DNA of 64,000 nt from the NCBI GenBank assembly GCA_037043015.1, contig CM073323.1, forward strand, positions 8,618,001 to 8,682,000. The letters run 5' to 3'. The notes beneath the pieces are model-generated. The model was not told the origin of the DNA. It saw only the letters and a program-made list of their open reading frames with translations, and did no database searches. The translations under genes were made by a program, and so were the position numbers. Every line of letters starts with the position of its first letter. Position 1 is the first letter of the stretch. Below, in pieces: positions 3,212 to 63,805 of this stretch. Source of the stretch: Bryum argenteum (taxonomy: Eukaryota > Streptophyta > Bryopsida > Bryales > Bryaceae).

Positions 3212-3220
3212 TTACCATGA

Positions 3221-3576: not shown

Positions 3577-3676
3577 TTACCATGAAGGCCAACAAAAAGA
3601 ATCAAAAACTTTAGTCCCCCCAAGCAGAAATCTTAGTCCCCCTAGCAATAATTTGGTATTGTTTACAACAATAACA

Positions 3677-10730: not shown

Positions 10731-11016
10731 TCGGTTGCTCACTGGTTTGGTTTTTTTTTTTCGTCCGCCAATTCGGAGCAGTTTCAGAGCAACTGGAGAT
10801 TGTCTTCTTTTGATACGCTGGAATCCGTGTGCTAGTTTGGAAAGCAGGGAGATTGTTGACAGTTTTTTTTATCTGGTTTCCTCACCTAAATTTTTTTCCT
10901 TCCACCGCTAGAGGGGAAGCAGTAATTTTCTTGTTCTTGGTAGAACTGCAACATTGCGAATCAGTTGTTTCAGGAGAAAAGTGTTACCGCTCCATAGCTA
11001 GAATCGATTCATTTCC

Positions 11017-11737: not shown

Positions 11738-11780
<43 letters not shown>

Positions 11781-11952
11781 GCAAGTGCAGAGATTCCACC
11801 ACTCGCCTTCTTCATTCAATCCCCCATTTAGCCCCGGGATAATACCACCGGGATATGGCGGCTTCGGCGCCCAATTCTCGCCTACTTCGCTTACCATGGA
11901 CAATCCCTTCACTTTTCCCGACTCCGACATCTCCAGGTCTGCTTTCTCCTGA
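11017..11952 (+). CDS. VQ-motif protein (intronless, 311 aa)
   Basis: Plant VQ proteins are nuclear cofactors that bind WRKY transcription factors and are often phosphorylated by MAP kinases in stress and development. The defining motif F-x-x-x-V-Q-x-L-T-G is intact at residues 76-85 (FRTLVQQLTG), preceded by YKTDPSD as in many VQ proteins. Residues 25-35 are a Gly-rich tract, followed by a Ser-rich and a basic segment. The rest is Pro/Ser-rich and disordered, with several Ser-Pro sites that could be MAPK targets, and a run of about 22 Gln encoded almost only by CAA near 11731-11783. The first ATG in frame is used; M14 is an alternative start. One exon is typical of many VQ genes. The VQ assignment is secure; the partner is unknown. 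Confidence 0.9.
11731..11783 (+). repeat. CAA microsatellite coding for poly-Gln in the VQ gene
   Basis: An almost pure CAA run with a few CAG codons inside the VQ ORF, giving an uninterrupted glutamine tract. Its length is likely to vary between individuals. Confidence 0.85.
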
Positions 11953-12839: not shown

Positions 12840-15800
12840 TTTTTGTAGATATGTTTTTTTCTGCCTGCGTCCTACGTCTGGATTTTTTACATTTTTTTTA
12901 CAATTTTGATATGACCTTTTTGATGTCCGTGTCCGGAGAACATATGTGAGGACTTGTATATACCCGTATCCTCCGGACATCAAAAAATAGAAGGATTTAA
13001 TTAATTTGTGAGTAAGGTCTCCCTTGTCCTATGGGTGAGCTTTTTATTTGGTGCTCTTAAAAAACTACACACCTACACACTTCTAAACCTACAACTTAGA
13101 GATATTTTCACTTGGACTTCTGATTCAGGTTATAATGGTTTATGAGATATCCCCTCACTTCTATCCCATCCTCATTTTTCTTTGAAATATTCTTTTCAAA
13201 CCGATTTTGATTCCATCCAAGAGTGTTGCTTCCAGTAGTATCCCTAATTCCCTATTCAATCATTTTCAAGAATTTATAACTATGTCAATAACAACCTAAC
13301 AATTGAGAATTCTTTTAAGTTGATCTCTTTCAAATATGCTAATGCAATACATATAAAATCACTTAAAGCAATTCAAATTATTCAAAAATGTAAGAAAAAA
13401 TATAGGCTTCAATGTAAGGGTCGTAACATTGGTTCAATGCTTTACTCAAGTTTCGGATTACATAGCATTAAAATATCAAAAATGGAATGTTCAATTTTAT
13501 TTCCGCACAAGTCTTTACTCGTGTCCTACGTATGGATGTTTTTAAAATTTCGATATGACCTTTTTTGATGTCTGTGTCCAAAGGACACATGTAAGGACTT
13601 GTATATACCTATGTCCTCTGGACATAAAAAAATAAATGGTATTCAATTAATTCGTGAGTAAGGTCCCTCTTGTCCCGATGGGTGAGCTTTTTATTTGATC
13701 CTCTTCAAAAACTACCCCCTATCCTTGCTTCCCTCGTCGATGGTCCTTCTGTTTTTTAAGATTTATAGCATGTCCTCTCTTCCCTTCTCCTCGGTTCCCC
13801 ATGCTTTGTCTAGTTCCCCCTCTCACAACTTTCCTTCTTGGTTTCCATCATTCGTTCTCAATCTTCATCATTTGTTCCTGGTTCTCATTATTTGTTCATG
13901 GTTCTCATCCTCCTTTCGCAATTCTTATCCTTTGTTTCGGGTTCCTAGTTCCCCTCCGATTTTCCCTTGATCTCCCGTTCACTCCTTCTTTGCTCTCATT
14001 CTCATGTTCCATATTCCTTGTCCATTTGACTCCTTGTCATATTATTGGAATCTAATAAACTCTTAATAACAATCAAATACCACTTATAGAAACTCTTCAA
14101 AATCTTTAAAACTCTTCATGCCTGTATAGAAGACCAAATTATGATGGCCATGACCATGACCATACATGTATTTGATTAATTTGTAAGTAAGGTCCCCCCC
14201 CTCATCCCAATAGGTGAGCTCTTTATTTAGTGCTCTTCAAGTACTATCCCTATCCACGTTTTCCTCATTGATGATTGGTCCCTCTCCTTTATAAGAATTA
14301 TAGCATATCATATATTCCCTTCGTCTTGATTTCCTATATTCTTAATTCTTTAAGATTCATAGCATATCTTTCGTTCCATAGATCCCTTGTTCCTACTTCT
14401 CTGTCTTTTGTTCTGGTTCCCCATTCTCCTTTTCTATATTAATGGTTTCCTATCTCTAAAGTCTTGTTCCCAGTATCCATCATTTGTTCCTGGTCCCCCC
14501 CCCAACTCTTCTTCTTGGTTCCCATCGTTCGTTCCTAGTTCCCATCATTTGTTCCTACTTCCTATCATTCGTTCATGGTTTTCATTATTTGTTCATGGCT
14601 TCCATCCTCCGTTTCCATTTCCTATCCTTTGTTCGAGTTTCTAGTTCTTGTCCCATCTTCCCTCGATCTTCACTTGATTGTTTAGTTTCCTTCCATTTAA
14701 CATGTTCTAACATTCCTTGTCGCTTCAACTCCTTGTTATATTATTGGGATCAAGAAACCCTTAATGACAATCATATACCACTTACGAGAACTCTTCAAAA
14801 TCTTCAAAACTCTTCATACTATATACATAACCAAATGATGATGGCATGATCATGACCATGCATGGTGGATTACCAAGGACAGATAGAGAGATCGTTTTCT
14901 TTTATATCTCTACAAGTCCTTATATGTATCCTCCCGACACAAACATCTAAAAGGTCATATTGAAATTTATAAAATGTGTAAAAAATCTATACCTAGGTTA
15001 AAAAAAAGGTACAAAGTTGGAGGTTTTTGGTGATGTTGAAATTATGAGATATGCAATCAATATACAAGTTCTCCATGTTGTCCATGTTGTTTAAGATTTA
15101 TAGCAAGACCTACGTTCACGTCTTTTTGGTTCCCAATGCTTTTTAAGATTTGTAGCATGTCCTCCATTCCCTCGTTCCATTGTTCCTAGTTCCCCGTCCT
15201 CTATTATAGTTCCCTATTCTCCAATTTTTCTTTTTTTTACTGTTCCCTACCTAGAAACTATAGTTCATGGTTTCCATCGTTTGTTCTCATTTCCCCATCT
15301 CCCAACTTCCCTTATTAATTTCCATCATTCGTCCCCAGGTTCCCATAATTTATTCCTAGTTCTTATTATTTGTTCCTGGTTTCCATCCTCCATTCCGAGT
15401 TCCTATCCTTTGTTCCTCGTTCCTAGTTTCTTTCATCCCCCCTTCACTTCTTCTTTGCTCCCATTTTGATGTTTCATATTCCTTGTCCCTTTGCCTCCTT
15501 GTTATATTCTTAAGATCTAATAAAAAAATTAAATACCACTTATGAAACCCTTCAAAATCTTTAGAACTCTTTATACCGTGTATACACGACCAAATGACAT
15601 GACCATGACCATGCATCGCCAAGGACAGACAGATTGTGTTCTTATTCATATAGAGATATAAATAAAAGAATAGGATTGTTTGTCCGTCCTTGGCGATCGA
15701 TACATGCATGGTCATGGACCATCATTTGGTCATGTATACACGGCATGTATTAAAAAATTTGAAGAGTTTCCGTAAGCGGTATTTCATTGTTATGAAAAGT

Positions 15801-16310
15801 TTATTAGATCCCAATAATATAACAAGGAGTTAAAGACATGAAAACGCCAACAAAGAAGGAGTGAACGGGAGATCAAGGAAACATCGGAGGGAACTAGGAA
15901 CCAGGAACAAAGCATCAGAACTAGGAACAAATGGGAACGACGAACAAATAATCAGAATTAGAGAATTAGAAACGAATAATGGGAACTAGGAACAAATGAT
16001 GAGAACCAAGAACGAATGATGGAAACCAAGAAGGGAAGTTGGCGGACAGGGAACTAGTAAACCAAGAAGGGAAGTTGGCGGATGGGGAACTAGGAACAAA
16101 GGATGGAAGCCGAGAACGAGATTTTGGAGGTAGGGAACCGGTGACAAAGATATGTAGAATGGGGAACTAGAACAGAAGACATGGAACTCAGAAGTAGGAA
16201 CAAGAAAACAAGGGAATAAAAGACATGCTATAAATCTTTAAAAGCATGGGGGAACCGAGAAGAAGGGAACGGAGCTTTAAGAATATCAAACAAAGTCAAA
16301 ACTTACGACT
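12840..16310. repeat. mosaic of inverted and direct pyrimidine-rich repeats
   Basis: Three copies of a block with ATATGACCTTTTTGATGTC followed by GGACTTGTATATAC occur: direct near 12905 and 13548, inverted near 14915-14990. GAGTAAGGTC..GGGTGAGCTTTTTATTT blocks recur near 13010, 13655 and 14185. Between them lie long C/T-rich tracts made of GTTCCTGGTTCCCATCATTTGTTCC-like words. The segment 15110-15630 is repeated in inverted orientation at about 15700-16270 (G/A-rich words, AATAATATAACAAGGAGT). A hairpin around CCAAGGACAGAC (15615) and GTCCGTCCTTGG (15681) sits at the centre. No transposase is seen. It looks like a foldback element or nested miniature elements. Confidence 0.6.
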
Positions 16311-17712: not shown

Positions 17713-18065
17713 CACCTAAAAAAGAAAGAGAAACTCCAACCTATTTAAAGGCCGACATGAATAGAGTGTTCGTTCGACCTATTCTTGAATGTATGCCCGG
17801 ACGTCATCACACCAATGGGGAGACTACTAACTCCTCTCGGGGTGAACACCATGTTAATACCTACCTAGCCGCTAGTGCCTTATAGATACCCGACAAAATA
17901 TCCCCCAAAGAGCTTTGAGGTACCCATACAACAAGGTTCAAGAACTCCCCACCATAGTGGGGTGGACTGTATGGTGGTGAACACCATGCCTGCATGGGAG
18001 TACAACCCACGACCTTCTCATTGGGGGCCATGAACCCTAACCACCAAGTCAAGGCTTGTGGTGCA
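17713..18065 (-). mobile_element. tRNA-derived SINE, diverged copy
   Basis: Minus-strand copy. The tRNA-like head lies at about 17990-18064, and the body is similar to the copies at 3221 and 26686. Its 3' third differs (ACGAACACTCTATTCATGTC) and defines a second subfamily, shared with the fragment at 22777-22845. A degenerate duplication with TGTGCTT (17706-17712 and 18066-18072) flanks it. Confidence 0.75.
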
Positions 18066-25945: not shown

Positions 25946-26685
25946 TGGGTGAGGCCCTCATCGTCGGATTCCTAGCTGCTCGTGTCCCTCCCTCATCGGG
26001 CTCCCGCCCTCCTCGGATCGGGTCCCTCACATGCCAGAAGTCCCTTCGAGGGGGGCTCCCCTTTACATACAATTTTCAAGAATTAATCATAGAAAGTGCA
26101 ATCCTTATCGATTTTCAAAGTTCTAGCCTCTTTCATTCATTGCAAAATAAATAGTAATTATTGTATGGAATTCAACCATATCAATATAATCTAATCATTA
26201 AGTTTTTCAGATTGTCTCTTGAAAAAATACTTTGTAAAAGTCGGAGAACTCACATTTCATAATACATATAACCTTTTTCCAAACCCCTTGAGTCAATAGG
26301 GATTAAGGCAGATGTTTGTTTGATGAAAGTGGATACTATAATAAAAGTGCAAGGAACATATAGTGGATTGGATGGGTGAGATATTAAATTGAAGTATTTA
26401 TGACCTTGGAAATTACAAAAAACGACCTTATTTTAACTCAAGATCATTAACAAGAGAAACACGACCTTGCAAAAATCACGTTGTTTGGAGTCTAAGATAA
26501 ATGATCAAAAATAGAAACATAGGTCTACAAGTTTGGTAGTTTGTCTTTTCAAAACAATAACACGGACGGGGGCGTAGATGAAGATGCTTGGCATGATTAA
26601 AGATGGGCATCGACATGATTAAAGTATTCATATAGGCACGACAAACATTGTGCGAATATTCAAGTTTATATATTTGATGCATATA

Positions 26686-27043
26686 AGGCACCACAAGCCT
26701 TGGCTTGGTGGTTGGGGCTCATGGCCCCCATTGAGGAGGTTGTGGGTTCCATTCCCCATGCCGGCGTGGTGCTCACCACTATAGTCCACCCAACTATTGT
26801 GGGGGGTCCTTGGACCTTGTTGTATGGGTACCTCAAAGTCCTTTGGGGGGATACTATGTCAAGTATCCTCAAGGCACTAGTAACTAGGCTAGAAACTAGC
26901 GTAGTTATAGTGTCCACCCTCGAGAGGGGGAAGTAGTATTGTTCCAATTTCCCCTTGTCCGGTGGCCATCGGGATATTAGCATTACGAACGGACACTTCA
27001 TTCACGCCGGCCCCTTAGAAAGGGACCGGAGTTTCTATCTATC
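26686..27043 (+). mobile_element. tRNA-derived SINE, full length (copy 2)
   Basis: The 358-bp element is flanked by a perfect 13-bp duplication TTTGATGCATATA (26673-26685 and 27044-27056). The A-box-like TGGCTTGGTGG lies near 26701 and the B-box-like GGTTCCATTCCCC near 26745. It ends with TCTATCTATC. It is very similar to 3221-3576, so this looks like a recent insertion. Confidence 0.9.
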
Positions 27044-27056
27044 TTTGATGCATATA

Positions 27057-28710: not shown

Positions 28711-28888
28711 CACCAATCATTCCTCAACTGTAAGGTAGCAACTGATAATTAAATTCTCAATACTGAAATCTGATAATTTAAAATAATTTAAATTAGTCTC
28801 AAGTGGGAACACTTGTGGAATGTCTAATACCAACAGTAGAAAGAAGAAGAAGAAGGATAAAAGAATTTAAAAAAAAAAAAAAAAAAAA

Positions 28889-29434
<546 letters not shown>

Positions 29435-29503
29435 AGAAGAGAGGCAGCATCGGAATTTTCTGTTGAGTGGCATTTGGTTAAGGGATGCATTGGAATAAAA
29501 TAA

Positions 29504-32608: not shown

Positions 32609-32929
32609 GTTTAACTATTCTATATAATGGCCTTAAAACTCCAATATTTTTTTTTGCAATGTGGATGCTTCAAAAAAGTACAGAGCATACTTCAAATATA
32701 GATATGTAAATTCCATATGATGGCTGAATCACCAATCTTTTGCTCCTTGTAACATTTTTGATTAAAATTCTTCGTGTAGCAACATTCCAAAATTCCATTT
32801 AACCACAAAATGGTAGGATAAGCTTTTGGAAATTAAATTCATTACTTAGATCACTTGCAACATTGGCATATGTTGTTGAAATGTATTGTTGGATACTTTT
32901 TGGTATATGCTTTTATTATGTATAAACAA

Positions 32930-34165
32930 TTGTTGGCTATTGAAAAGTATCTTTGGCTGATGTTTGCTCTTGAAAACTATCTTTGGCCAACTGTTTGCAT
33001 ATGAAGTATCATTGACCAACGGCTCTTGAAAATTATTGTTGGCGATTGTTGGCTCCTAAAAATACTTCTTGCTAACTTCTTGGCTGTTGAAATGTAATGT
33101 TGGCCAACTCTTGGCTCTTGAAAAGTATCTTTGGCTCATGGTGGCTCTTAAAAACAATCTTCGACGAGCTATTTGCATTTGAAAAGTATCCTTGGCCAAC
33201 TGTTGGCTCTTGAAAAGTATCTTTGGCTCATGGTGGCTCTTGAAAACTATCCTTCGCCCACATGTTTGCATTTGAAAAGTATCTTTGGCCAACTTTTCGC
33301 TCTTAAAAAGTATCTTTGGCTCATGTTTACTTTTGAAAACTATCTTTAGCCAATTGTTTACATTTGAAAAGTATCCATGGCCAACTGTTTACATTTGAAA
33401 ATTATCTTTGCCTCATGGTGGCTCTTGAAAAGTATCCTTGGCTCAGCTAGTCAGCTGTTTGCATTTGAAAGTATCTTTGGCCAACTTTTGGCTCTTGACA
33501 AGTATCTTTAGCCAATTGTTTGCATTTAAAAAGTATCCTTGGCCAAACTGCCAAATTGTTGGCTCTTGAAAAGTATATTTACCTCATATTTGCTCTTGAA
33601 AACTATCTTTGGCCAACCGTTTGCACTTGAAAAGTATCTTTGGCCAACTTTTAGCTCTTGAAAAGTATCTTTGGCTCTTGTTTACTTTTAAAAATTAGTT
33701 ATGGCCAACTGTTGCATTTGAAAAGTATTCTCGGCCAAACTTTTGGCTCTTGAAGAGTATCTTTGACTTATGATGGCTCTTGAAAACTACCCTTGGAGCT
33801 GTTTGCATTTGAAAAGTATCCTTGACCAACTGTTGGCTTTTGAATAGTATTGTTGGCAACACTTGGCCCCTAAAATTTTTTTGGCTAACTTTTTGGCTGT
33901 TGAAATGTATTGTTGGTTGATTGTTGGCTTTTGAAAAGTATCCCTTGCTAGCTCCTCGCATTTGAAAAGTACTCATGGCCATCTATTGGTTCTTCAAAAG
34001 TACTATAAGCTAACAATTGGCAAATGATATTGAACAAGATTGTTGGCTAATTGTTGGCATGTCTTATTGAAATATATTGTTGGCCAACTATCCGCTATTG
34101 GAAGGTATTGTTGGCTAACTGTTGGCATATGTTATAGAAAAGTATTGTTGGCATATGCTATTGCC
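32930..34165. repeat. degenerate minisatellite (units of about 30 and 60 bp)
   Basis: Dozens of imperfect units built on TTGAAAAGTATCTTTGGCCA, alternating with CTGTTTGCATTTG and TCATGGTGGCTCTTG, often as a ~60-base dimer. Units in the centre are most regular, and the edges near 32930 and 34100 are more diverged. Open frames across it are repeat artefacts. Confidence 0.85.
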
Positions 34166-36580: not shown

Positions 36581-39150
36581 ATGTTAGGTGCACCGATGTC
36601 TTTCGGCACAATGACGCCGAGCAAGAGTTGGCCTTATTTTGATCCTGAGTACGACACTATGAGCTCTATCATAGACCCCCCTCGGTAAGCAGATGAATTG
36701 GTTGTGGCATCTTACTACAATGTGCTGATGATTTTACTGAGGAGATCATCCTTCTTCGTTTTGTAGGGTCGTGATTGACAACGATTCTGACAAAGTTGCC
36801 ACTCTCGTCAAGGTACTTGATGAGCTTCCGCCAGTATTTTTAGAGGAGGAAATGCCTCCATAATTGTTACACATGTTTCACAATTGGTTCAGTTCAAGTC
36901 ACACATGCTCTACTGGCAAGTTCTCCACAGGCTTCTGACCAAATTAAATCTGGTTGCTGTTGAGATGGTCATCCGAGGATGCAGAGCAGACAGAGTTTTT
37001 GTAATTTGGAGTTTAGTTTGTGATGATTTGCTACCTCAGTGTATGTGATTATGAGTAGATAAGACATATAAATGTAATGCTTTAAAGAGTTTTGTGAGCA
37101 TAAAGTTGAACTTTCCTGCAATATCATTAAAGACGACAGTTCTTCAATATTTTAGTCAAATCGACTGTTGAGAACGTAATTGAAATCTGATGCAGGTCAG
37201 CAGCCAGAACAAGCAAGGTACTCTGCTCGAAGTCGTGCAAGAATTGATGGACATGGATCTAACCATATCAAAGGCTTACATCTCTTCTGATGGGGGTTGG
37301 TTCATGGATGGTTAGTGTTTTCAATATTCATCACCACAATTTCTTTTCTTTTGAAGTTCTAGGATAAGTGCAGTCCTCAGTTTAATGAAAGCTTTCTGAT
37401 ATTGACCTCTGCGACCTGATTTTTGACACGTACTCTCCTTCGCAGTATTTCATGTGACAGATCAAAAAGGAAGAAAGATCCGTGATGAGAAGCTGATGGG
37501 AAACATACAAAAGGTGAGCACTAGGAGCATTCGTCCTCAGAGCTGAGCTTTATTTCTTGCTCTATCCGTTTGAACAGTCGAAAGAACATGTAATGAATCC
37601 GAGGCGTTACGTGCAGGCTCTGACGATGAAAAAGAAGAAATGGACGGCTGAGTTTCAGAAGTGTCCGGGGAGATGCATCGGTACACAGACTATTTCAGAA
37701 CACACAACGATAGAGCTCACTGGAGCGGACAGACCTGGCTTGCTTTCAGAGATTTCAGCTGTCTTGGCAGAAATGAATTGTCGAGTGAATGCTGCAGAAG
37801 CGTGGACTCATAAGCGGCGGGTAGCTTGTGTGATATATGTGACAGACGAAGACACCTTAGGACCCATTGAAAATGTCAAGAAGCTGGATAAAATATTGGA
37901 GAAATTGAAGCCTATTATGCAAGGATATGACAGCGGAACTGCTGTTCGATCGGTCGTGGCGGAAAGCTTTACTCACGTTGAAAGACGTCTGCATCAGCTA
38001 ATGTTTGCTGATCACGATTTCGACTTGTCAGATTCACAGAGCCCATCGCCCATGAAAAAACACGAAAAGCCGGAGATAACAGTCAACATGGGCAGTGAGA
38101 GGAATTATTCAGTTATTAATGTCAAATGTGTAGACAGACCTAAGCTACTGTTCGATACTGTTTGCACTTTGACTGACATGCAGTATGTAGTTTTCCATGC
38201 CACTATTGATTCCTCTGGTCCCTATGCTCTCCAGGTAAATCTGCATTTCAACGTTCTCTATAACCAAATTGGGATGAGAGGGATCACATATTTGCTGAAT
38301 ATCTGGCGAGAGAATGCAGTTTTATCTTTATTGTCACTTGTATTACAGACATGGTCTTTGGCTTTCCATCAATGTACTGTGTTACGAGTGTTTCCCCCTG
38401 TTGCCTGTACGTCGTGTAGTATGCTGCATCTGGAGGATTTGTAATTTATCCATGTCTTTTGGCTGTACAGGAGTACCATATCCGTAAAATGGATGGCCGA
38501 ACTCTCGACGCTGAAGCCACCGAGAAGGTCAAAAGATGCATGGAGGCAGCTATTGAGCGTCGACCCTCAGAAGTAAGAACCAACTCTGAGCAGAGATTCC
38601 AATTTTGGTAGTACATTACTATAAGTCAATATCGTCTCTATCGATGCAACTCAGAAGAGTGGGCGAAGAGCAAGCATCAGTCCATATTTATCAAATCTGC
38701 AGAGTATGCAAGTCTTTAGCATTGAGTGAGGCTGGCATTAGTGAAGTGCATCTCTTTACGTTGCACTCTTGGTTATCACGCACTGAGTGTCGATTGATTT
38801 CTGATTATACCAAACTCTATTTTCAGGGCTTGCGGCTAGAACTCTGCACAACCGACCGGGCAGGACTTTTGAATGACGTGACAAGAGTCTTTCGTGAGAA
38901 TGGTTTATCTGTTACAAGTGCCGATGTTTCCACTCGAGGTGACAAGGCTGTGAACACCTTCTATGTGACTGATGTAAATGGGGGCTCTGTTGACCTCAAG
39001 ACAGTGGAAGCCATCCGCAATGGCAATCCGTTCTTGGGGGTTAGCGCAGTGACACCAGTTTCTGAAGTGCCTCGTGTGGATACATCTCCGTTTTCCAAGT
39101 TCATGAAAACATCCGAGCGCTTTCTTCAAGGTCTTGGCTGGAGGGTATGA
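36581..39150 (+). CDS. ACT-domain-repeat (ACR) protein, 7 exons, 471 aa
   Basis: Plant ACR proteins resemble the C-terminal part of bacterial GlnD uridylyltransferase and are proposed amino-acid or nitrogen-status sensors. Exons: 36581-36684, 36767-36812, 37196-37310, 37446-37513, 37578-38234, 38471-38572, 38827-39150; all GT-AG and in phase. Four ACT domains are visible: about 36-110 (VVIDNDSDKVATLVKV..NKQGTLLEVV), 152-225 (TTIELTGADRPGLLSEISAV), 288-355 (INVKCVDRPKLLFDTVCTL) and 365-435 (LRLELCTTDRAGLLNDVTRV). The conserved linker ERRLHQLMFADHDF is at 246-259. Start: the first ATG, directly after a likely acceptor. The exon 5 start is uncertain: the acceptor at 37576-37577 follows a good pyrimidine tract, but 37617 also keeps frame. 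No catalytic domain is present, as expected. Confidence 0.92.
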
Positions 39151-41768: not shown

Positions 41769-44700
41769 ATGGCATTTGCATCGGGTCATAGCAGCAGCAG
41801 CAGCAAGAATGGGGTGCCGATGTCGCTGGCTCCGCGCGGGGGCACCAAGCCTGGCTCCGCGTCGCCCACATCCACCGGAGCTTCCCCGCCCGTGCGCCCT
41901 AAATCCGCTTCGCCCTCCCCTTCCCACAACAACTCCCACCGTCGCTCCTCCAGTGGCGCTCCCAATGGCGGCGTCGGAGGTAACACCACACAACACAACC
42001 ATCTCCCCACTCGCAAATAAAATCCCATGCATTCATTCATTCAATAATTCGAACTGCAATGCAATGCAACCTCCGGTCAGCAGTTTCCTGTGAAAAAGCA
42101 ATGGTTGCGGGCTGTGTAACTGCCTGCCTCATTATGCCCTGCCCTAAAGCGCTCCACAAACGCAAATTCGCAAAAATTTCAGTGAGCACATGCAAATTTT
42201 TTGCTGCTGTAGGGGTACGATGCACACTCATGAGAATCGTTGGATTGTGTAGTTCCGAATCGCGTCCGTGTTGCGGTTCGGTTACGGCCTCGCAATGCGG
42301 AGGAGCTGCAAGCTGATGTTGATTTTGCCGATTGCGTGGAGTTGCAGCCCGAGGTTAGTTTGCTATTACTCACACGTTATTGATGCAAGCATCGAAAGGC
42401 TAGGAGATAATCTTGTTCCTTTTTTGGCTTTTTTCAGCTTAAGAGATTGAAGCTACGAAAGAACAACTGGGACTGTGAGACTTATCAGTTCGACGAAGTC
42501 CTTACGGAGACTTCGTCACAGAAACGTGTGTACGAGGTGGTGGCCAAGCCGGTCGTCGAGGTAACCAAATCACTTTTTTTTGGTATGATATGGTAATGTT
42601 AGTTTATACTGCTTGGGGTGCGTATTTATCATAGATGTTTTGTGCTTTCAGAGCGTTTTGGAAGGTTACAATGGAACCGTTATGGCATATGGACAAACTG
42701 GTACTGGGAAGACATTCACATTGGGGAGATTAGGGGAGGAAGATTGTGCCGATCGAGGTATCATGGTTCGTGCCATGGAGGACATACTGGCCAATGTGAT
42801 TCCGGGTGAAGACACTGTAACAGTCTCATACTTGCAGGTAGCACCATCTTCATGTTCTACTGCATGTGCTTCTAGTTTGTTTATGGTCCTTAGGGTTTGA
42901 GGTCTTGGCCTTCTACTTCGAGAAACTGCATCTTGGTAAGCCATTTTCTGATCTTTCATTTCTTACATGGCCGTTTCTTGTGTGATTCTATAGCTGTACA
43001 TGGAATCGGTGCAAGATTTGTTAGCTCCAGAGAGGGACAATATTGCAATTCAAGAGGACCCGAAGACTGGTGATGTGTCTGTTCCTGGGGCCACTCAAGT
43101 TCAGCTGCAAGATCAGACCAGTTTTGTACGCTTGCTGGATGTTGGAGAGGCCAATCGGTTCGCTGCCAATACTAAGCTTAACACGGAGTCATCACGTAGT
43201 CATGCCCTTCTACTGGTGAGAAAATATCCCTACCCTGGTATCGAATGCCGCAACCTTTGCCCAGGAGGTTATTGTCCAAGCTTTTTGTGACATGCCTCGT
43301 TGTGCAGGTCCAAGTAAAGAAGACTGTTAAAACTAAGCCTGGAGATGCCAGTGCGCTTGAGAATGGAAATGGCAGCCCTCAGACGTCGAAGGGACTTCGA
43401 GCTCCGACTATTCGTAGAAGTAAACTTCTAATAGTCGATCTTGCCGGATCTGAGCGAGTGGACAAATCTGGTACACGCCATTCTTTAAGGAACTCGTTTT
43501 ATTTTAATTAGGAAGAAGGATGTCGTATGCTAATTACCGATTCTCGGAGCAGGAAGCGAGGGCCACACCCTAGAAGAAGCAAAGTCGATTAATCTGTCTT
43601 TGACAGCATTGGGGAAATGCATCAATGCTCTTGCTGAGAACAGTTCTCATGTCCCAATTCGCGACTCAAAGCTAACAAGGCTTCTCCGAGACTCGTTTGG
43701 AGGTGAAATCAGTGTATTTTTTCTGAATGGGTTGTTGCAGCATTACCTGCTTTTGTACTATATCTTGTTTTGTAGTGGTTTGCAACATTTTGCAAAAAGT
43801 TTTAATCTTCAGGGTGACAATATTTTTGCAGGTACTGCGAGAACTTCGTTGATTGTGACGATCGGACCGTCACCTCGGCATAGAGGAGAGACCTCCAGCA
43901 CAATCTTGTTTGGCCAGCGTGTAAGTTCCATAATCTGTTAATCACGGTTTTGTAGTTCGGATAAGAGAAAAGGGTTAGCTTCTTATATTCCTCAGTAATC
44001 GGAGGTCGTTTTGGTGCAACTGCATGTACGAAGTCTATTTTCGGTTACAATTTGACCTGTCTGACTTGTCAGTCATGTCATGCAGGCCATGAAAGTTGAG
44101 AACATGGTGAAGTTGAAGGAAGAATTTGACTACAAAAGCCTCTGTCGAAGACTAGAGGCAGAGCTTGACAGAATGACTGCAGAGAATGAGAGACTAGTAA
44201 AAATTAGAGAAGACACTGAAGACGAATGTGCCAGACAGCTTGATGATGCTCGCCAAGATGTTTATGAAGCCGAGAGCAAGCTTGCGCATGCCTTGGAGGT
44301 TTGCCTCAACATCCTTGCCTTTATTAACCATCAATACATGCCAGATGCTGTTATTTGCAAGTCCTCTGAACTCGCTGTTTTCGGATAGATCTTTAAGTAT
44401 GTAGTTTCGAGCTCAGCTTGAAAACCTTAACGTGGCTTAAGTAGGACTATGGATTTTCGCTGGCATATTAGTGTCAAGGCACTGCTTCTCTGTATTTTGG
44501 TTTGGAATGTCTGCTCTGGTTTGTTGAGAGTTAAGGTGGCGTGCAGTCAACGGCAGCAGAGAAGTCGCATAGCCGAAAAGATGTCATGGAGATGAAACAA
44601 AAACTGGAGGCTGAGTGCGCTCGGAGGGAGAAACTTGAGAAGGAGTTGCAAGCACTTTCTCTACAGCACCAATCAGAGAAAGAGGAGGTAGTACTCTGTA

Positions 44701-47700
44701 TTTTAAGCATTATCTCTTGCCAGTAGGTCTCGCTATATACCCTGTAAGGTTCTGGGCTTCAGGGTCAAGTCTCTCATTCATCTCTTTCTCCGAGACAATC
44801 CAAATCCCAACATGTATTCTCTCACAACGTAAAATATGCAAGATCCAGCAAATTAAGTCAGTCACCTAATCAAGAGGAAGGTACTGAGGATGGAGGAATT
44901 CACTAACTTGGAGAAATTAGATGTTAAATGAGCTCGGTGTGAGTGTTGGACTTGATTGTCTACGGCAATTAAATTCACCAAGAGTATGTAGCTGGAGTAC
45001 CATAGTATTTTTAAGGGTGGATTACGAAAGAGCTCAATCACTACAGGTCGTAATAAGGTTAGTGAGAATCGACACGTTTTACGGTGTGTAGAAGACTCCT
45101 AGGTAGTGTGTCGTTTGATGGGTGAAGGAGATGCGGGTATGCAACGTTTTCTCATGGTTGGGTAGCAAGTTGCAATTTGAATGTAGTTCAGTACTTTGGC
45201 TTTTTCCAACAATATTGAAAAGTTTGTGCCTGTAATTTCAGAGATCTTCTCAAACGGACGTTACCAAGCTCCTGAAAGAGTTGGCAGAGTCGACGGAGAA
45301 GCACCAGAAAGAGGTTGCAGAGCTGACGCAGAAGCACCAAAAAGAACTTGCGGAGGCTGTTGCCGTACAAATGCAAGAGCGAGCTCATCGGGAGAGGTTG
45401 GAGAACGAGCTGGCTAATCAGCAACAAGAGCTAGCCCTCTGCGAAAGGCTGGAAAAGGAGCTGCTTGACGGTGCTCAACCCCAGCACCAACGCCAAGAGG
45501 TGAATCTTGTCTACATATCTTGTCGATTATACAAGGTTCTGATATACCGAAGAACGGAAATGTTATCTAAAGGTTAAGAGAATTCAAATAGAGGTATAGA
45601 TGCCTTATTAGTTGTTGTCGCTGGGCTTGTATTATCGGGTATGCAGTCAATTGAGCACAGTGGCGAAGTGCTGAGCTTAAGATTGTCCCTTGAGAAGGAA
45701 ATTCAGAGAACGGAGCAGTTGGAACAGGAGTTACGCTCGTTCAAGTCGTCAACCTCAAGAAAGAATCTGAATGGAAATCTTCAGAAACAAAGTGATGAAC
45801 TTCTCACCGTTAGACAACGGCTAGAAGATGAGCTGAAGGAGAGAGAGAGACTCGAGGCCGAAAACCAAGCCTTGAGGGAGCAAATAGGTCTGCTCGGTGA
45901 AGACGGAGACGAGGTTCGCTTTTCCTCACGAATGTCCTTTTTCTCAAATTTGTCTTGCCGTCCTAGCTTCTGGCTCTAAATAGCCGTGCCTCAACCTCTT
46001 GCTCCGCAATACAAGCCCTGAGAATCGATGAGCAGACTACTCTGGTGCTGGTTCAGTGCTTTTCTCACATGGTGTTGTTTGAATGTGGTATTTCAGCATA
46101 CCAGGAGGATCTCTGACAGAGGAGGCTCAGAACGAAGCTCAGTGGGATCTGAAAGTCCCCGAGTGAGTGCCTCCAAGCCTAATCACATGCGTGACACGAT
46201 CAATGGTCAGCGTGCAACTATTGCGAAGCTCTTTGAGCAAGGTACACACCAAGCTCTTCTCTTACTCTCCGAGGATAGTAATGGCTGTAATCACTTCGCT
46301 TACGTGCTCATCTTTCATAGCATCGGGTTCATGATTACTTCTGTACTCTTTTTGGCAGTGGGATTGCACAAGATTCTCTCGCTTTTGGAGTCAGAGGATG
46401 TGGATGTGCGGGTGCACGCTGTCAAGGTTGTGGCAAATCTTGCTGCTGAAGGTAAGATCAGGCTCTAGGCTTAGTTTTAATATCATCAAAGAGCGTGTAG
46501 AGCGGGTTTGTTTTCGGTTCGGTCTACATGCCTGTTTTGAAAATCAGTCTCACGAGGACGTGGTTTCTTCTTTAGAACACATCAGAAGTAAGTAAACTGG
46601 TATCTCTTCCTTACTTTGGACGCTGCATGGGAATAAACGTCATTTTCAAGAGTTCGAACAAAGTGCACTCGCTAAAATACCACAAAGGGCTAGAAACATT
46701 TTAGCAACGAATTTGATGCAAAAAGTAACTGGATCCTTGAGTCTTGGAATTGCAAGGGTAAGACCAAGACACCAATTCAGGGGAGAAGTGTACTCATTGT
46801 TGAAGAATTGCATGAAACTATGAGTCTTGTAAAAAGCACAAATCAAACACGAAGTAAACATATCTTAGCTGTATAATTTGGCATGGGATCAAGTTCTGCA
46901 AAAGAGGGCTAATTCGTTAAGTTCTATGTGTGCTTGTTCTTGTTTGATCCGCAGAAGCAAATCAAGAAAAGATTGTGGAGGCAGGAGGTCTGGGTTCTCT
47001 TCTCAACCTGTTGCAAAGTTCTGAGGATGAAACCATTCGGCGAGTTGCAGCTGGGGCTGTGGCTAACCTTGCTATGAATGGTAAGAACTCAATTTCGTAT
47101 TTGTATTTCCTTCGGTTTCGTGCTCAATATCACTAGTGTATCCAAATGTGGGTTATTTGCGCAGTCAGCTTCAGGTTGTAGTTTGTTTATTGTTCATAAA
47201 TTTACCACTAGAAAATTTTGCATATGTCTTCAAACATGCAGATCTTGATTTATTTATATTTCAGTATACTCATAAGTCATGTGTCTATTACTTAAACCAT
47301 TTTCTGTTGAGCTCAGAGACAAACCAAGAGCTCATCATGGCACAAGGCGGAATAGGTCTGTTAGCCCGAACTGCAGATGACGCAGAGGACCCTCAGACAC
47401 TAAGGATGGTTGCTGGAGCCATAGCCAATCTATGTGGAAATGGTATGTCAATCGCTGGCAGAGGCTGTCATAAAGGCAAATTTTGGTCTTTCGATTTAAG
47501 CATGTCTAATTGTGGTTGCTTTTCTCACTAGGAAATCATCTTTTCTATTGTCTTGAGAACAATTTATAAATCGGTGTCAAATTTCTGAACAGACAAGCTG
47601 CAAATCAAGTTGAGGGAGGAAGGTGGTATACGCGCATTACTTGGAATGGTGCGATCAAGGCATCCAGATGTACTGGCTCAAGTTGCTCGCGGAATCGCAA

Positions 47701-48649
47701 ACTTCGCTAAATGTGAATCTAGAGGTGCTGCTCAAGGTAACAACATTATATTCTTGATATGCGGCAAGTTGTTGAATCGCTTGTGTAGCCGAAATCAATC
47801 ACTGAAACAGCTGTTTAAGTCTAGAAGCAGAAAACATAACAGTACTCTATCAAGCTATCGACTCATGGGCTTGTAGATAATGTGGCGGACCTGTTAGAGA
47901 ATAGACTAACATCTGATTCACTCCATTTTAGAAATTACAATTAATTGATGTTGTAGTTGCAGGGTACAAGACGGGAAGGTCATTACTTATAGATGATGGG
48001 GCATTGCCATGGATTGTTGCGAATGCCAACAACGATGCGTCACCCATCAGGCGCCATATTGAGCTAGCCCTATGTCATTTAGCACAGCATGGTAACTCCC
48101 CTTTTCATTCTCTTTTGCATACAAAGGTTCAGCATGAGCAGTACCAAAAATGGGTGAACTTTGCAGGAGGTACATAATTGCTTCAAACGCTGGTACTCAC
48201 ATCACTACGAACATTTAAGGAATACCTTTGAGTCCAACTTCAGTTCAAAAATTCATAACAACTTTTATGAGTCAAAATGAATCTACTAAGGTTCAAAATT
48301 TGATGATACCAGTAAGTCCTACCTTCTACTTACCTTACTTATGCATAACAATCTCCTTGCAAAGCTGCCTTCACTACAGATTCGCTATGCTAAAATTTGC
48401 ACCATCATTGAGCAGGTTATCGTAAGGCTAATTTTGCTGGATCAAATGCTTGCTTGCTAAGGAAAAGAATGCTTGTGTGTATGTGCAGAAGTGAATGCAA
48501 AAGATCTGGTGGCTGGTGGAGCGCTATGGGAATTGGTGCGCATCTCTCGAGAGTGCTCAAGAGAGGATATTCGCAACCTGGCGCAACGCACATTAAATGC
48601 CAGTGGGACGTTCCAATCAGAGTTGAGACGCCTGCATTTGGTGTATTAG
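41769..48649 (+). CDS. ARK: armadillo-repeat kinesin (ARK), 19 exons, 1015 aa
   Basis: Plus-end kinesin of the plant ARK group, which regulates microtubule growth and tip growth. Exons: 41769-41979, 42253-42353, 42438-42560, 42652-42837, 42994-43215, 43308-43470, 43553-43702, 43832-43920, 44086-44298, 44547-44687, 45242-45499, 45647-45913, 46097-46241, 46359-46451, 46955-47080, 47317-47442, 47593-47736, 47963-48091, 48489-48649; all phases join. A Ser/Pro-rich N-terminus (1-70) precedes the motor (about 72-412): P-loop GQTGTGKT 159-166, switch I NTESSRSH 270-277, switch II DLAGSE 325-330, and [15 protein letters not shown] beyond. The post-motor [19 protein letters not shown] is a hallmark of ARKs. 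A long coiled coil runs about 430-705, then about five armadillo repeats (757-1015), mostly one per exon. Motor residues are intact, so an active ATPase is expected. A small internal exon could have been missed in the coiled-coil region. Confidence 0.93.
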
Positions 48650-54234: not shown

Positions 54235-57200
54235 TTATTGAGCTCCAAGATATTGCATAAATTCGGTAATTTCTTTGTACAAAGCTGCTCGCAATATATA
54301 CTTGTAGTAAAAAGAAGCTAGTGCAGCTCCAAGAAATGGACCAACCCAAAAAATCCACTGAAAATACCACACATCACTAACGTTAGAATAACTTTGATTA
54401 CTTTGGGACTATGCCAGAATAACATAGTGATGTGTCGCTTTACATGGGGAGTCAAGCTGTACATGGGGTCAAGAGAGGGGAAAAAATTCTGTCAACGTGA
54501 ATGGTTCATTTCTTGTATATTTTTTAAAAAATGAACCAATCATGTTAAGAGGGATTTTTGCCTCATGTACAGCTTGACTTCTCATGTAAAGCGTTCCTTA
54601 TATACACATGTAACTGCATATGTATATGTATAAGGAACTTACATGGTCTTCCCAATATTGTTGCGCTACTGCACTACCGAAGCTGCGAGCTGGGTTTATT
54701 CCTGTACCAGTTATAGATATTGTTGCGAGATGTACCATGAAAACCGCAAAACCAATCGGAAGTGGAGCCAAAACCTGAAATAAAATTTTTAATATTTTTC
54801 ATTTATAAGCCGATCTCCATTTTGAAGAAAACAAAGTGCTTGTAATTATACTAGAAAGTGTGGTATTTCCACCAAACTGAATGACTCATTCCACAAGGGA
54901 TTTCACCAAGCTTGATAAAATGAGACATTCTAGAAGAAAATCTTGATGGAAATATCACACATTTTGATAATAGACTTATGTGAAAACTTTTAACAAATGT
55001 TATTGTTGGAAGTTTATTGTATTAAGGGTATCTTGAAAAATTTGGGTTCCCGAAATAGAGGATTGGGATAACAAGGCTCATTGACGCTTGCATATTCTAG
55101 TGCATGGTTCAATATGTGAGCTTCATTGTTACTTTTTTTTGGCTTATATTCTAAATGATCGTGCTCTTTTGTCACAATAAATTTGTTCTTCCCGGAGTAA
55201 CACAAGTAATATAAAGGCATGTCAAGAACGAGGGCACGGTTCAACATTAGAGAGGCCGCAACTTGATGGATTAGATTTAAGAGGCATTTGCACGAGTGCA
55301 AAGGTGGTCCTCCTATACGAGAGGATTATACCCGTAGTGGCACACGATACCACGGGCTTGCGTATGTTTTGCGACTATGGGTATACTCGTTCCGTATGGG
55401 AGGACCACCTCCGCACTAGTACTGAGGTGAGGGTTTCGTGGCCCTCTTTAGAAAGAGGCATTAATCTGGTTGAAGGTTTCGTGGATTGATAATGTTCTTA
55501 GGGACGCGTTACATGAGGAGTCAAGCCGTACATGGGGCCGGCACAGAGCAGAAATCCTCTCAATGTGATTGGTGTTCATTTCTTAAACCACAAGTAATGA
55601 ACCAATGACATCGAGAGAATTTTAGCCCACCTCTGGCCCCATGCTTGGCTTAACTCCCCATGTAAAGCGTCCCTTAGTATGTTATATGAAATATTTTTGC
55701 ACATAAAAATGTCGGTTTTACCGGCACGTGAGAATCACGAGCAGTGCGTTTTGGATCGGTAGCGGATAAAACGACATACATCAATAGGAAAGAACCCATT
55801 AGTTCCGCGATAAATCCCGCACTAATAGAATAACCCTCATGAACGGCATTGCAACCTCCATTGAACTCATCCCAATATATATTCGAAGTTTTTACGATAG
55901 CTGCTCCCGTTACCGCTCCACACATTTGTGATAGAATGTATAATATTGCACGATTGATGGTCACTTTTCTCGCTACCATCAACCCGAACGTAACCGCCGG
56001 ATTAAGGTGTCCACCTATATGAGTTCGACTAAACCCATGAATATCATTGTAGTAGAAGAAACACATATTTTGTTATAATGGGAATATTCAATGATTTTGG
56101 GAAAGTACAGTGTAGCTCAAGTCGAGCTAAATGTACCCACAGATTGGGTACTTCACTGAAACTCTACAAAACAATCAATCATCGATATGTTTAAATGGCC
56201 ATATCTTACTCAATATCTGTCCAAATTCAGCAAATGAGGTGTTTTTGGACATTCGCAGAAAGAGGAGATGTCCAAAAACACCTCATATGCTGAACTTGGA
56301 CAAATTTTGAGTAAGATATGGCCATTTAAAAATATCGGTGATTGGTTGTTTTGTCCAATTTTGATGAAGTACCCAAGTTGTGAGTACGTTTAACTTGATT
56401 TAAGTTGAACTGTCATTTAAGTGAGAATTTGAATATTCCCATTATAACAAAATACATGTTGAGAAGACAATAATATCATGTGTATCCTCCCTCCGTGCCA
56501 TGATAATGGTCTCGTAGGTTATCTCAAATTTGTCTCCGGATAGAGATTTGGGACACCCTATGCAAGATTTGTTATAGAACGGAGAGAGTAATATGTATAT
56601 TATAAGTAATTTGTATGATTATGTTGTCTTTAAGAATATATATATCAAAATGAGCGAGTATACAAATGTATGCACCTTGAAGATTAAACAACTATATCAT
56701 CCAAAACCGGGAAATTTATGCACCGATGTATCACAATCCATTGATATAACAAAACTCTAATAAATGATTTTGAATTTCCAATTTGAATGCGATTAGAAAC
56801 TTGAGTCATATAAAAGATACATTATGTACTTGGAATTCAAAATCTGTATTTAGAAGAAAAAAAATGATTATTAGAAGAAAAGAAAAGAAAAGAACATAAT
56901 GAAGGTTTATATAGGTAACAATAAATAAAGTGTCATCTTTGCACCTTAGTATATACTCCCTGTGTCCCATTATAATTGTCCAGTAGGTTCTCTTAAATCT
57001 ACCTCTCAAGGTATATGTCAGAGAACCTACTGGACAATCATAATGGGACGGAGGGACTGTAAGTTTTAGATGGAAGTCCATGTTATTGTTGCAAATGTGA
57101 GTTTTGTATGTACCTGATATTCCCGATGTACAATAACGAGTACAAATATCATGCCTCCGAAGGCCCAAGAAATACCAACCATGCCGATTCCTCCGGTCAA

Positions 57201-59261: not shown

Positions 59262-62200
59262 ATGTCATCATCACCAAAAAGAAAGGAATCACATGGCGTA
59301 TTCAATGCCCCCAAAAAAGAAAAACGTTCTCACAAAAAGAAAAAAAAGGACGAGGACTCATCATCGTCATCGTCCTCATCGTCATCGTCGTCGGATATGG
59401 TGACAAAAAAAGAAGCGAAAAAAGAACCAAACCTCTCGCCAAGAAAACGAGACCAAATGAAAAAGGCATTGCTCGATATGGGACATGCCATGGAGACTGC
59501 AGTTTTGGTAGAGAAGACGAAGAAAAAGAAGGACGAGGAGCGTGTTGAAATTGAATTGCCACCATCTCCGGAAAATGAGATGGACTTTTTGCAACGTCGC
59601 AAGCTCGCGGCCGCCGAAATGAGGATCCGACGAGAGTTGGAGATTGAGAAGAAGCATCCTACTCGCCATCCTCTTTTGGACTTGCATCATTTGCCCCTCC
59701 CATTGCAAGATGCCAATAGGATGGACCTCACTCGCTTTCAGGTGCATTTCCATGTTTAGGGTTAGTAGGTAACTAGGGTTGTCTTATGTGAGACTGTCGA
59801 ATGTCAGACAAACATTTACCCTCGAACAAGGCAGACATCGAAGAGGCAATTGTTCCTCTTTTTACTATGCATTTTCTAGTATGATCGGACATTCCCCTGG
59901 AACATGTTGAACACAATAATTTAAACAGAGATTACTGAAAGTGTGTCATGTAAGACAACTATGGTCTTAACATCAAGGGTACGTACAAAAATAACCTCAA
60001 TGAAGTTTGGCAGTCTTCTTCTCCTTCCTTTTAGGGTTTCTCAAGTTTACACATCACAATTTTGCATTTGTTGGTCCACTACTAAAAAAGTGTGATATTT
60101 GCATCAAGCTCTTCACCACAAATTTCTCTATTTTACCCAGCTTGGTGGAAGTTCACCTTGAGAGCTACAACACTTTTACACTTTATTGGTAGTCATTGAG
60201 TTTGCACGCAAGAGAGAAGTAGTGTAGGAACACAGTTTATAATGTTAATTCAATTTTGATATATTTACATTAACCCCTAAAGTCAAACTAGATCACATTG
60301 TCGTTGATTTTTTTGAGAAAAATATGTTGTTTTTGCAAAAATTGGATCTTTGACTGATCACAACTTAAGATCCGTACAGTGAAATTTGACCCAAAAAAAA
60401 AGAAAAAAAAGAAGTGGTGGGTAAACTAATTAGATAGTTATAAACACGATCCTACGGTTGAAATTCCTAAAATCAAATTCTCGGATTTCAAGTATGGCCG
60501 TCTTGGAGGTCACTAGAGCTTCTCCTTTGGGAGGTCATAACACATAGAAAGTTTGAAAATTAAATAATTTAAATTGGTGTTGAGTGCATTGTTTTTAAAA
60601 ATGGTTATTGTCCCTCAGACAGCAGCTGCTTGGCAAAAAGCACAAGAGCGAGTTGCAGAGATGAAACTAACAAGAGAAATGCATAGGAGGCATGATAGTT
60701 TCATGAGCGAGACCAAAGAGATGATAAGAAGGACGTGGAGGTATCTCGAGATATCAACACATCATTTCGATGTGAGTTTGAGTTTGAGTTTGAAATTAGC
60801 ATACCTTCATGTGAATTATCAAGCATCTCGATCGATCGATCTTTAATTTTAAAAGGTCTGATAGAAAGGGTAAAGATTGCGTAGACATATTTCTAACTCG
60901 CCAAAAACAAGATTCACGAAGAGGAGCCTCGATTCACGTCTACTTTCAAAACTGATTAAAACGCTGCTTACCCTTTCTACAACTGAGGAAAAGTAGCTTT
61001 TGTTTTCCTAACTTTGAACATTGCAAGCTCTTATTTGTATTTGCGATTTGATGCACATGAAAAGTTAGTCACCACGTTCTACAATTGCATACTTGAAAGG
61101 TTGTCGTGCATTGAAAGAGGGCAATTCTGAGACGAGTTGGTTTTAAGGGTTGAGGTTGCTGAAGTCATAGTAGTACAAGTCGTACTAGTTGTCTTTCTTC
61201 CTACGTATGTGTATGTATAATTGTGTTGTGGATTTTGTGTACAGAGATTCAAACTTTGGGCAACCGATTTGAAGTATATGGAATGCACTTTTGGATCATC
61301 TATGATGATAACATTTGCCTTTTTGCGATGGGTGTTTCTCCTCAACTTAGTCCTCGGTTTGATATGGTTTTGTGCCATTGCTCTCCCTTTTATTCTTAAG
61401 CCACCAAAATCGTTTAGTTGGGTCAAATTCGTAAAGGATCTTCAAGCAAACAACTACTTAGATGCTTTGCAAGTATGTACTCATTTACAAATTTACTTGT
61501 CAAGTTATTCACCTTGTTTGGCACTGCATTTAAAAAGTCAAGTGGCCAAAAACAACCTCCTAATGCTTCTTTCTATATCAACATGTGTTCTTTTAGAGAA
61601 TTTTGTATATAGAATCTTCTTTAGAATTGTCCAAGTAGTGTATCTACAAGTTTGATTTGAAAGGGTCTTGAGAAATACATAGTCAAACTCCATAATGTGT
61701 AACAACTAAATTTCTTGATATGAGTTGAATCACGCTCTCAAGGATACTTGAACATCTGTAGTGAATACAATACAAATGTTCATTTAATTACAAACATTCA
61801 AAGTACTTTGATAGTATTCTACTTTCACTAAACAAGAGTTGTTAATTAGTGTTACGTGGAGATTAGTGTAACGGGTAACTTCTCGTAAGGAACACTATTC
61901 CTCAACTCTCTTGACATTAGTGTTCACTTTGGGCAGCCATTCCAATCAATGTCCCTAGTCTTCTCTTCAAGCCACCAAGTACACAACTTCGAATAAATTC
62001 TTTCACTCACAAGAAAGTTTGCATGCTCTCAGATTTAATGCTATGGTTCGACAATTAGTGTTGTAGCACTTAGACATTTAGTGTTACCGTTTGCAATTAA
62101 CATTTGTAACACTAATGACCAACTCTTGTGTAGTAGAAAAGTGGTTTGAGTAAACCAGCCAATACCCACAATTGGGTGTAAATTTCCGGGCATTTGTGTA

Positions 62201-62899
62201 CTCGTTTGTATTGTGGTTGATCATTTCAAACCACTTCTTTTTCTTTCTTTTTTTTTTGTTTTTTTTTCAAAACTTCACATTCCAATTTAGCTTCAATTAG
62301 TGCTAAAAGATTTTGCCATAATATTTAGATTGATTTTAAAGGTCAAGCTATTTCAAAATGTAATTAATTAATGCAGGGAATTGGGATTGATAAATCATTT
62401 CTCTACTACGGTGGATACATGTATGCCAGAAATGAACAAACTGGGTGGTATCACACAGATTACATGTATCCTCTTACAATGGTTGCAACAATTATTATAT
62501 CCTTGTTTGCTGTATTGGGCAGGTATTAAATAATCTTATTTAGGTTCAATATCATTATATTACATTTTCCACCATAGGAAAATAAATAGCTACAAAATAT
62601 TAGAATTTCATCGTCAATAACATACTTAACTGTGATAAATACCAGGTTGTCAAATTCAGTAGTGGAGAAGTGTGGTATTTCCACCAAGCTTCGTGAGAAT
62701 ATCACATTTTTTCATTAGTGATTTGAGCTTTTAAAATTGTAAATTAGTCCAAGACTCTCTTTATGATATAATTAGAAATTTGGTTAAAATGGTGGTATTC
62801 TTAGAGCCATTTTTATACACCAAAGTTTGCATTTATACGGCAATGAATTAGATTTACTTTTTGAAATATCACCCATATCATTATTTTTTCTAGAATATC

Positions 62900-62933
<34 letters not shown>

Positions 62934-63805
62934 TAAGACCTCTAAATTATGTAACATCACCTTGTTTTAGGGCGGCCGTCCTAAAAGTTTTGACCCAACA
63001 TTTTTCATTATTTTTAATGCAATTTGGATAGTATGATTTTATTTTTTATTAGTAAATTCTCAAATAATTACAGAATCACTGTTCGAATATTGGAATCTGC
63101 TTCAAAAGCATTAGGAGCATCTGGAAATGTACTTTATCCTTTTGCTACTCTAACATTTGCAACATGGGATTTTCATCTCACTTCATATGAGGTATTATAT
63201 AATGAATTGGTTATATGCAAAGTGTGTGAATTCACTAGTAGAAATACTGTCCAAAATGTTGTTTGGAATAATAACCTGTCCAAAATGATATAACAAGCTT
63301 ATGTCCAAAATGATATAACAAGCTTATGTCCAAAATGATATAACAAGCTTATGTCCAAAATGATATAACAAGCTTATGTCCAAAATGATATAGACTTGTG
63401 TCATTAGAAACATAAATATGCCTACAATGACAGATTTTTATGTCATGAATCTCTAATGACATTTAGGAGTTCAGACACGTTATTATTCCAAACAATATTT
63501 TCGGATAGTATTTCTATGAGTATTTTCTTTGGAAAGTTAGATACGCCAAAGTCAAAGTATTAGATACTAAGTAGTTATTTGGCACTAAAGGGTTAAGAGG
63601 TTCAATACTATAATAAGTGATCAACATTGTTATATTCATAGGCATGTAGAAGTGAAAATCCTTGTATCTAATAGTAAAACTATAGCTCAAATTGTAGGGT
63701 GCCACCATTATGCGAAGAGGTATAAGAATGCAATTTCGTGAACGCTTAGCTGATGATAAAAATAAAATAGTAGCAAGAAAAGAAAAGACTGGTATCCTTA
63801 TAAAG
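59262..63805 (+). CDS. TMC-like (transmembrane channel-like) protein, N-terminal part, continues past the window
   Basis: TMC proteins are multi-pass membrane proteins of the TMEM16/OSCA/TMC superfamily; animal TMC1/2 form the hair-cell mechanotransduction pore. Exons: 59262-59741, 60619-60771, 61245-61472, 62377-62522, 63074-63191, 63698-63805 (411 codons so far, all in phase). The N-terminus (1-160) is cytosolic-looking, with a Lys run, 12 Ser in a row at 33-44, and many charged residues. Exon 2 is a charged helix. Exon 3 holds FGSSMMITFAFLRWVFLLNL and the rest of TM1. Exon 4 has KSFLYYGGYMYARNE (the family's FYGxY region) and TM2 (YPLTMVATIIISLFAVLG). Exon 5 ends LTFATWDFHLTSYE, like the K-V-F-x-x-W-D-Y segment of animal TMCs. 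Exon 6 (GATIMRRGIRMQFRERLADD) matches the following charged helix. The diagnostic C-terminal CWET region lies outside the window. Confidence 0.82.
60077..60194. mobile_element. CACTA-ended MITE in TMC-like intron 1
   Basis: CACTACTAAAAAAGTGTGAT at the left (60077) and a degenerate inverted end CACTTTATTGGTAGTC at the right. Inner arms TGCATCAAGC / GCTTGGTGGA also pair. Same family as 54851 and 62657. Confidence 0.5.
60270..60618. other. intron 1 remainder with an orphan TTAA-element end
   Basis: TTAACCCCTAAAGTCAAAC at 60270 matches the left end of TTAA elements; no right end seen. Confidence 0.35.
61826..62135. mobile_element. CACTA-ended MITE in TMC-like intron 3
   Basis: CACTAAACAAGAGTTG..ATTAGTGTTAC at the left and GTAACACTAAT..CAACTCTTGTGTAGTA at the right are inverted over about 30 bases. 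The word TTAGTGTT recurs several times inside (subterminal repeats). No ORF. Confidence 0.65.
62657..62720. mobile_element. 64-bp mini-MITE in TMC-like intron 4
   Basis: CAGTAGTGGAGAAGTGTGGT at the left and ATCACATTTTTTCATTAGTG at the right are inverted. It shares GTGTGGTATTTCCACCAA with 54851-54973. Confidence 0.55.
62903..62931. repeat. poly-T run in TMC-like intron 4
   Basis: About 29 consecutive T within the intron. Confidence 0.9.
63233..63522. mobile_element. CACTA-like MITE carrying a 25-bp satellite, TMC-like intron 5
   Basis: CACTAGTAGAAATACTGTCC at the left and GGATAGTATTTCTATGAGTA at the right are inverted. The arms continue with TTGTTTGGAATAATAAC / GTTATTATTCCAAACAA. Inside, 63277-63394 holds about 4.5 copies of a 25-base unit ATGTCCAAAATGATATAACA plus AGCTT, whose first bases repeat a word from the arm. 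Confidence 0.7.

Follow-up and report, generated by a model that had tools for sequence, protein, structure and literature searches.

Single Tmc genes have been reported from two green algae, the chlorophyte Coccomyxa and the charophyte Klebsormidium, and from three land plants, namely the liverwort Marchantia, the moss Physcomitrella and the lycophyte Selaginella (Erives & Fritzsch 2019, PMC7003098). Under its gene-loss heading, the same article implies that Tmc was lost in the clade with lignified walls that unites ferns, gymnosperms and angiosperms, which agrees with the statement in a first-pass annotation of the DNA studied here that flowering plants have no TMC. The family is also present in choanoflagellates (PMC10770216). 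Here, we analyze a gene at the end of a stretch of 64,000 nucleotides (nt), hereafter the window. Judged from its sequence, this gene almost certainly belongs to the TMC family, and it is very probably the 5' part of a nuclear land-plant TMC gene that was inherited vertically from a green-algal ancestor. It would thus be a land-plant TMC gene, as are those known from Marchantia polymorpha, Physcomitrella patens and Selaginella moellendorffii.

The window ends inside the gene, and the exons of its 5' part are in view at 59262-63805 on the forward strand. The six exons splice into 1233 nt, or 411 codons, without a stop (Table 1). All five complete introns (877, 473, 904, 551 and 506 bp) have GT-AG borders and the exon phases agree. 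A GT also directly follows exon 6, while exon 7 was not found between exon 6 and the window end. The G+C content of the coding sequence is 0.41, compared to 0.26-0.37 in the introns, and the window as a whole has a G+C content of 0.383 and an observed/expected CpG ratio of 0.66, values that are not diagnostic of any lineage. The first ATG of the frame is located 12 nt downstream of an in-frame stop, and spliced 5' untranslated exons are possible. By hydropathy, the visible part of the protein has two hydrophobic transmembrane (TM) segments, and the motifs quoted in the first-pass annotation are all present in the spliced frame: FGSSMMITFAFLRW with TM1 (quoted there as FGSS..FAFLRW), the YYGGY loop, TM2 and LTFATWDF. 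The Lys/poly-Ser tail that it pointed out is there as well; this tail is of low complexity, and its Ser run derives partly from a short TCA/TCG/TCC repeat (59361-59389). It is possibly a disordered region with a role in phosphorylation or lipid binding. As a separate observation, intron 5 contains at 63239-63516 an inverted repeat of ~43 bp (91%) flanking a 25-bp tandem array (63277-63392), which resembles a small non-autonomous DNA transposon. The introns of the gene also hold a 31-base poly-T.

The family assignment is carried by a phmmer search against 177,635 distinct PDB sequences, with matches listed up to E=10. Using all 411 amino acids (aa) as query, residues 163-397 matched residues 96-342 of Caenorhabditis elegans TMC-1 (ceTMC-1; 7usw) with E=5.3e-11, followed by C. 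elegans TMC-2 (ceTMC-2; 8tkp) with E=5.3e-4. These were the only matches below E=1. The other three rows had E values of 1.2, 2 and 10, and two printed alignments among them fall in or beside the Lys/Ser tail. When the query was restricted to aa 161-411, TMC-1 and TMC-2 were found again and nothing else. A Smith-Waterman alignment of aa 161-411 to ceTMC-1 96-342 scored 168, while 1000 shuffles gave a mean of 34 (standard deviation 5.3) and a maximum of 56. The identity to ceTMC-1 is 67 of 223 aligned residues. Together with the open frame and the agreeing borders and phases, this match bears out the earlier claim that six in-phase exons encode the N-terminal half of a TMC protein.

The support differs between exons when these are shuffled separately (exons 2-6, 1000 shuffles each, segments trimmed by at most one residue at the borders). 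Exon 3 is the most conserved block: it scored 92, and its best shuffle 53. Exons 5 and 6 joined scored 49, compared to 46 for the best shuffle; neither score was reached by any shuffle. Taken alone, exon 2 and exon 4 are weak, their scores being reached by 39 and 104 of the 1000 shuffles, and the corresponding counts are 152 for exon 5 and 234 for exon 6. Since exon 4 is weak by itself, what supports its assignment is its phase and its splice sites, together with the colinear gapped alignment.

The solved TMC complexes allow a comparison of anatomy. The cytosolic helices H3 and H4 of ceTMC-1 are amphipathic, with H3 residing in the inner leaflet, and H1-H3 as well as H5-H6 are held by CALM-1 (PMC9605866). 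In human TMC1/2, CIB2/3 is clamped between the N-terminus and intracellular loop 1 (IL1) (PMC11709434). The plant protein resembles ceTMC-1 (7usw, 7usx, 7usy) and TMC-2 (8tkp) in a colinear order of pre-TM1 stretch, TM1, TM2 and IL1, but differs in its Lys/poly-Ser tail and in the loop between TM1 and TM2, which is gapped and weakly alike; N209 of ceTMC-1, which is glycosylated (PMC9605866), aligns with Ser269. In the plant protein, amphipathicity is highest in the 18-mer at aa 196-213, which aligns with ceTMC-1 131-148. The latter segment overlaps the 18-mer of highest amphipathicity in the ce 96-342 piece (128-145). We infer that aa 196-213 correspond to H3. Further downstream, the last 78 aa have a single PDB match up to E=10, namely the IL1 of human TMC1 from the CIB3 complex 6wud, where F..WD(Y/F) and the following residues align gap-free over 42 residues, at an E value of only 0.52. 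While human TMC1 IL1 binds CIB3 in this complex, the plant protein has no known partner.

Several results weigh against reading the gene as an ordinary inherited plant TMC, or limit how far that reading can be taken. In the 411 aa, Pfam detects no TMC domain (its three weak matches, all below cut-off, were SR-25 at E=0.058, MP_p6 at 3.3 and MFS_1 at 4.8), and NCBIfam, a library made for prokaryotes, finds no TMC model in the visible part. The missing Pfam match is expected, since the TMC domain (PF07810) comprises TM6-TM8, described for mTMC1 as residues 512-631 (PMC6067890), and would be located beyond base 64000. As this domain, TM3-TM10 and the pore would all be beyond the window, family membership rests on the N-terminal part. 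Among viral and prokaryote contigs, 3 and 45 pattern matches were obtained, respectively, and none was confirmed as a relative by tblastn. AlphaFold2 run on the single sequence without an alignment was uninformative, with a pLDDT (predicted local distance difference test) of 56.5 and a pTM (predicted template modeling score) of 0.28. The match of aa 196-213 was made without a chance control, and ce 104-121 is nearly as amphipathic as ce 128-145. The CALM-1 interface was compared using the six ceTMC-1 residues named in PMC9605866, an incomplete list of which R780 falls outside the compared piece. Three of the five placeable contacts (E160, F309 and D313) are identical, Y314 is replaced by Phe and L308 by Thr; at 30% overall identity, at least three identical contacts of five has P=0.16, which is not significant, so the contact residues permit a conserved EF-hand partner and no more. 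A special conservation of the CIB docking site is not significant on the same figures. Finally, no function of a plant TMC is reported in the passages and titles consulted, among which PMC7003098 is the only paper dealing with plant TMC genes, and a literature search on calcineurin-B-like proteins together with CIB turned up no paper. Even so, an ordinary inherited plant TMC is what we consider the gene in all likelihood to be.

By analogy with the family, such a gene would have further exons downstream carrying TM3-TM10, and two TMC subunits would dimerize, each having its own ion path. The amphipathic helix preceding TM1 would lie in the inner leaflet, where it may sense tension or thickness, and an EF-hand protein (CIB- or calcineurin-B-like) may sit between the N-terminal helices and IL1. 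Channel opening would then admit cations including Ca2+, for example when cells with weak walls come under osmotic or mechanical stress. A mechanosensitive cation channel, gated by force or osmotically, is thus a tentative proposal that we hold at a little under an even chance. The rival that ranks highest, followed by a decaying copy and then by contamination, keeps the family and changes the function: the plant TMC might be mainly a lipid scramblase or regulator rather than a force-gated channel. Scrambling has been proposed for TMC4/5 (PMC11370596), and scrambling potential is described as common to TMEM16 and OSCA/TMEM63 (PMC11534332), but mouse TMC1/2 are reported to form mechanosensitive channels on their own (PMC11892609). 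As the pore-lining helices are beyond the window, the sequence cannot decide here, and we regard a main role in scrambling or regulation as rather unlikely.

The remaining alternatives concern the identity and integrity of the gene. It could be a TMC by descent that is truncated or decaying, as only part of it is in view and its introns carry the inverted-repeat element and the poly-T. However, the six exons have neither stop nor frameshift, every visible splice site is intact and the coding G+C content is above that of the introns, and we therefore find decay improbable. Contaminating or chimeric animal or protist DNA joined to plant DNA could be suspected because the gene sits right at the window's end, and a chimeric contig had been named in the first-pass annotation as an outcome that would overturn its reading. 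A repeat common to TMC intron 1 and 54901-54965 (79% over 66 bp, E=2.4e-8) places the same element within the gene and on the plant-gene side, making a chimeric join unlikely; plant TMCs are moreover known, and we consider foreign DNA very improbable. The same annotation would have withdrawn its claim had the protein matched only OSCA/TMEM63. Membership of OSCA/TMEM63 or TMEM16 instead of TMC deserves consideration, as OSCA is common in plants, Anoctamin, TMC and TMEM63 have been named one superfamily (PMC13164078), and their affinity is also discussed in PMC7003098. Yet up to E=10 the PDB searches found TMC-1 and TMC-2, with OSCA, TMEM63 and TMEM16 chains absent from the matches, although the presence of such chains in the searched set is unconfirmed; structures of these proteins exist according to the titles of PMC6235563 and PMC10636204. 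Despite the proposed common superfamily, plant OSCA and animal TMEM63 gave no sequence match up to this E value, and the IL1 block matches human TMC1 only (E=0.52). We see hardly any chance that the gene belongs to these families.

The first-pass annotation had presented a plant TMC as surprising. A TMC-family gene in plant DNA is indeed what we find, but the surprise falls away, as TMC genes in land plants were already published in 2019 (PMC7003098) and the present locus is one more, expected gene. With TMC already in print from three land plants (liverwort, moss and lycophyte) and from two green algae, its novelty is low. The suggested bearing on mechanosensing in early plants is likewise reasonable but not new. 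From the published distribution, an ordinary bryophyte or lycophyte TMC is the most likely identity. The locus would be important only if its host belonged to the plants presumed to have lost the family. An origin of the window in a fern, gymnosperm or flowering plant, with TMC surviving in one or more lineages of that crown group, is unlikely. If true, it would mean that TMC was not lost with lignified walls, contrary to what Erives and Fritzsch imply, and perhaps that the protein had gained a new role with a calcineurin-B-like protein replacing CIB. The value of plant TMCs is in asking what the family did before animal hearing and touch, in organisms such as moss and liverwort whose knock-outs are easy, and the locus contributes a readable N-terminal part with IL1.

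The genomic neighborhood was characterized by running Pfam on ten neighboring frames, two of which had no match. The VQ, ACT-repeat, kinesin and aquaporin frames near the TMC gene (Table 1) point to land-plant DNA, in line with the first-pass assignment to a plant. We take VQ proteins in particular as a sign of a land plant. The aquaporin frames and the TMC gene lie in divergent orientation, with ~1.7 kb between them.

Table 1. Exons of the TMC gene and neighboring features, in window coordinates.
Feature	Position	Strand	Content or basis
TMC exon 1	59262-59741	+	aa 1-160; start Met, Lys/poly-Ser low-complexity cytosolic tail
TMC exon 2	60619-60771	+	aa 161-211; cytosolic; the pre-TM1 amphipathic stretch (aa 196-213) lies mostly in its 3' end
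TMC exon 3	61245-61472	+	aa 212-287; ECTFGSS...FAFLRW plus TM1 (hydropathy peaking at aa 240-258)
TMC exon 4	62377-62522	+	aa 288-336; extracellular loop with YYGGY; larger part of TM2 (hydropathy peaking at aa 321-339)
TMC exon 5	63074-63191	+	aa 336-375; TM2 end and start of IL1, including F364, W367, D368, F369
TMC exon 6	63698-63805	+	aa 376-411; second part of IL1 (...RMQFRERLADDKN...); GT after
VQ motif	11002-11949	+	Pfam
ACT domains, ACR type	37518-38441 and 38590-39147	+	Pfam
Kinesin motor frames	42589-42897 and 43534-43938	+	Pfam
Tc3-type transposase helix-turn-helix	50925-50491	-	Pfam, below cut-off
Aquaporin/MIP frames	57575-57069 and 56072-55677	-	Pfam

The kinesin gene extends over 42589-47873 on the forward strand; Pfam was run on its two motor frames, and the later frames resemble armadillo repeats by eye. 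The combination of kinesin and armadillo repeats is presumably that of the plant ARK type. The transposase fragment on the reverse strand is Tc1/Tc3-like (HTH_Tnp_Tc3_2, E=1.1e-5) and contains the motif WTDESSFE, which we take to resemble Tc1/mariner catalytic cores. According to PMC7325037, none of the PlantMar elements is from bryophytes, and neither Pfam nor this source gave the fragment a clear lineage signal. Searches of the window with Rfam returned nothing at gathering scores, and ARAGORN found no tRNA.

The window also contains several repeats. A dispersed repeat is found at 3217-3578 and 26683-27045 (92% over 363 bp), with a third, inverted copy at 17823-18064 (~78-80%), and at 13799-16241 tandem units of 20-40 bp are clustered within copies of a 350-600 bp repeat that occur in both direct and inverted orientation. 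A very long AAAG microsatellite of ~142 copies (97% match) occupies 28870-29435. Lastly, an array of ~1 kb at 32927-33942 is built of diverged 31-bp (also 61/92-bp) tandem units, and on the reverse strand two stretches without a stop, 110 and 95 aa long, are located in or across it.

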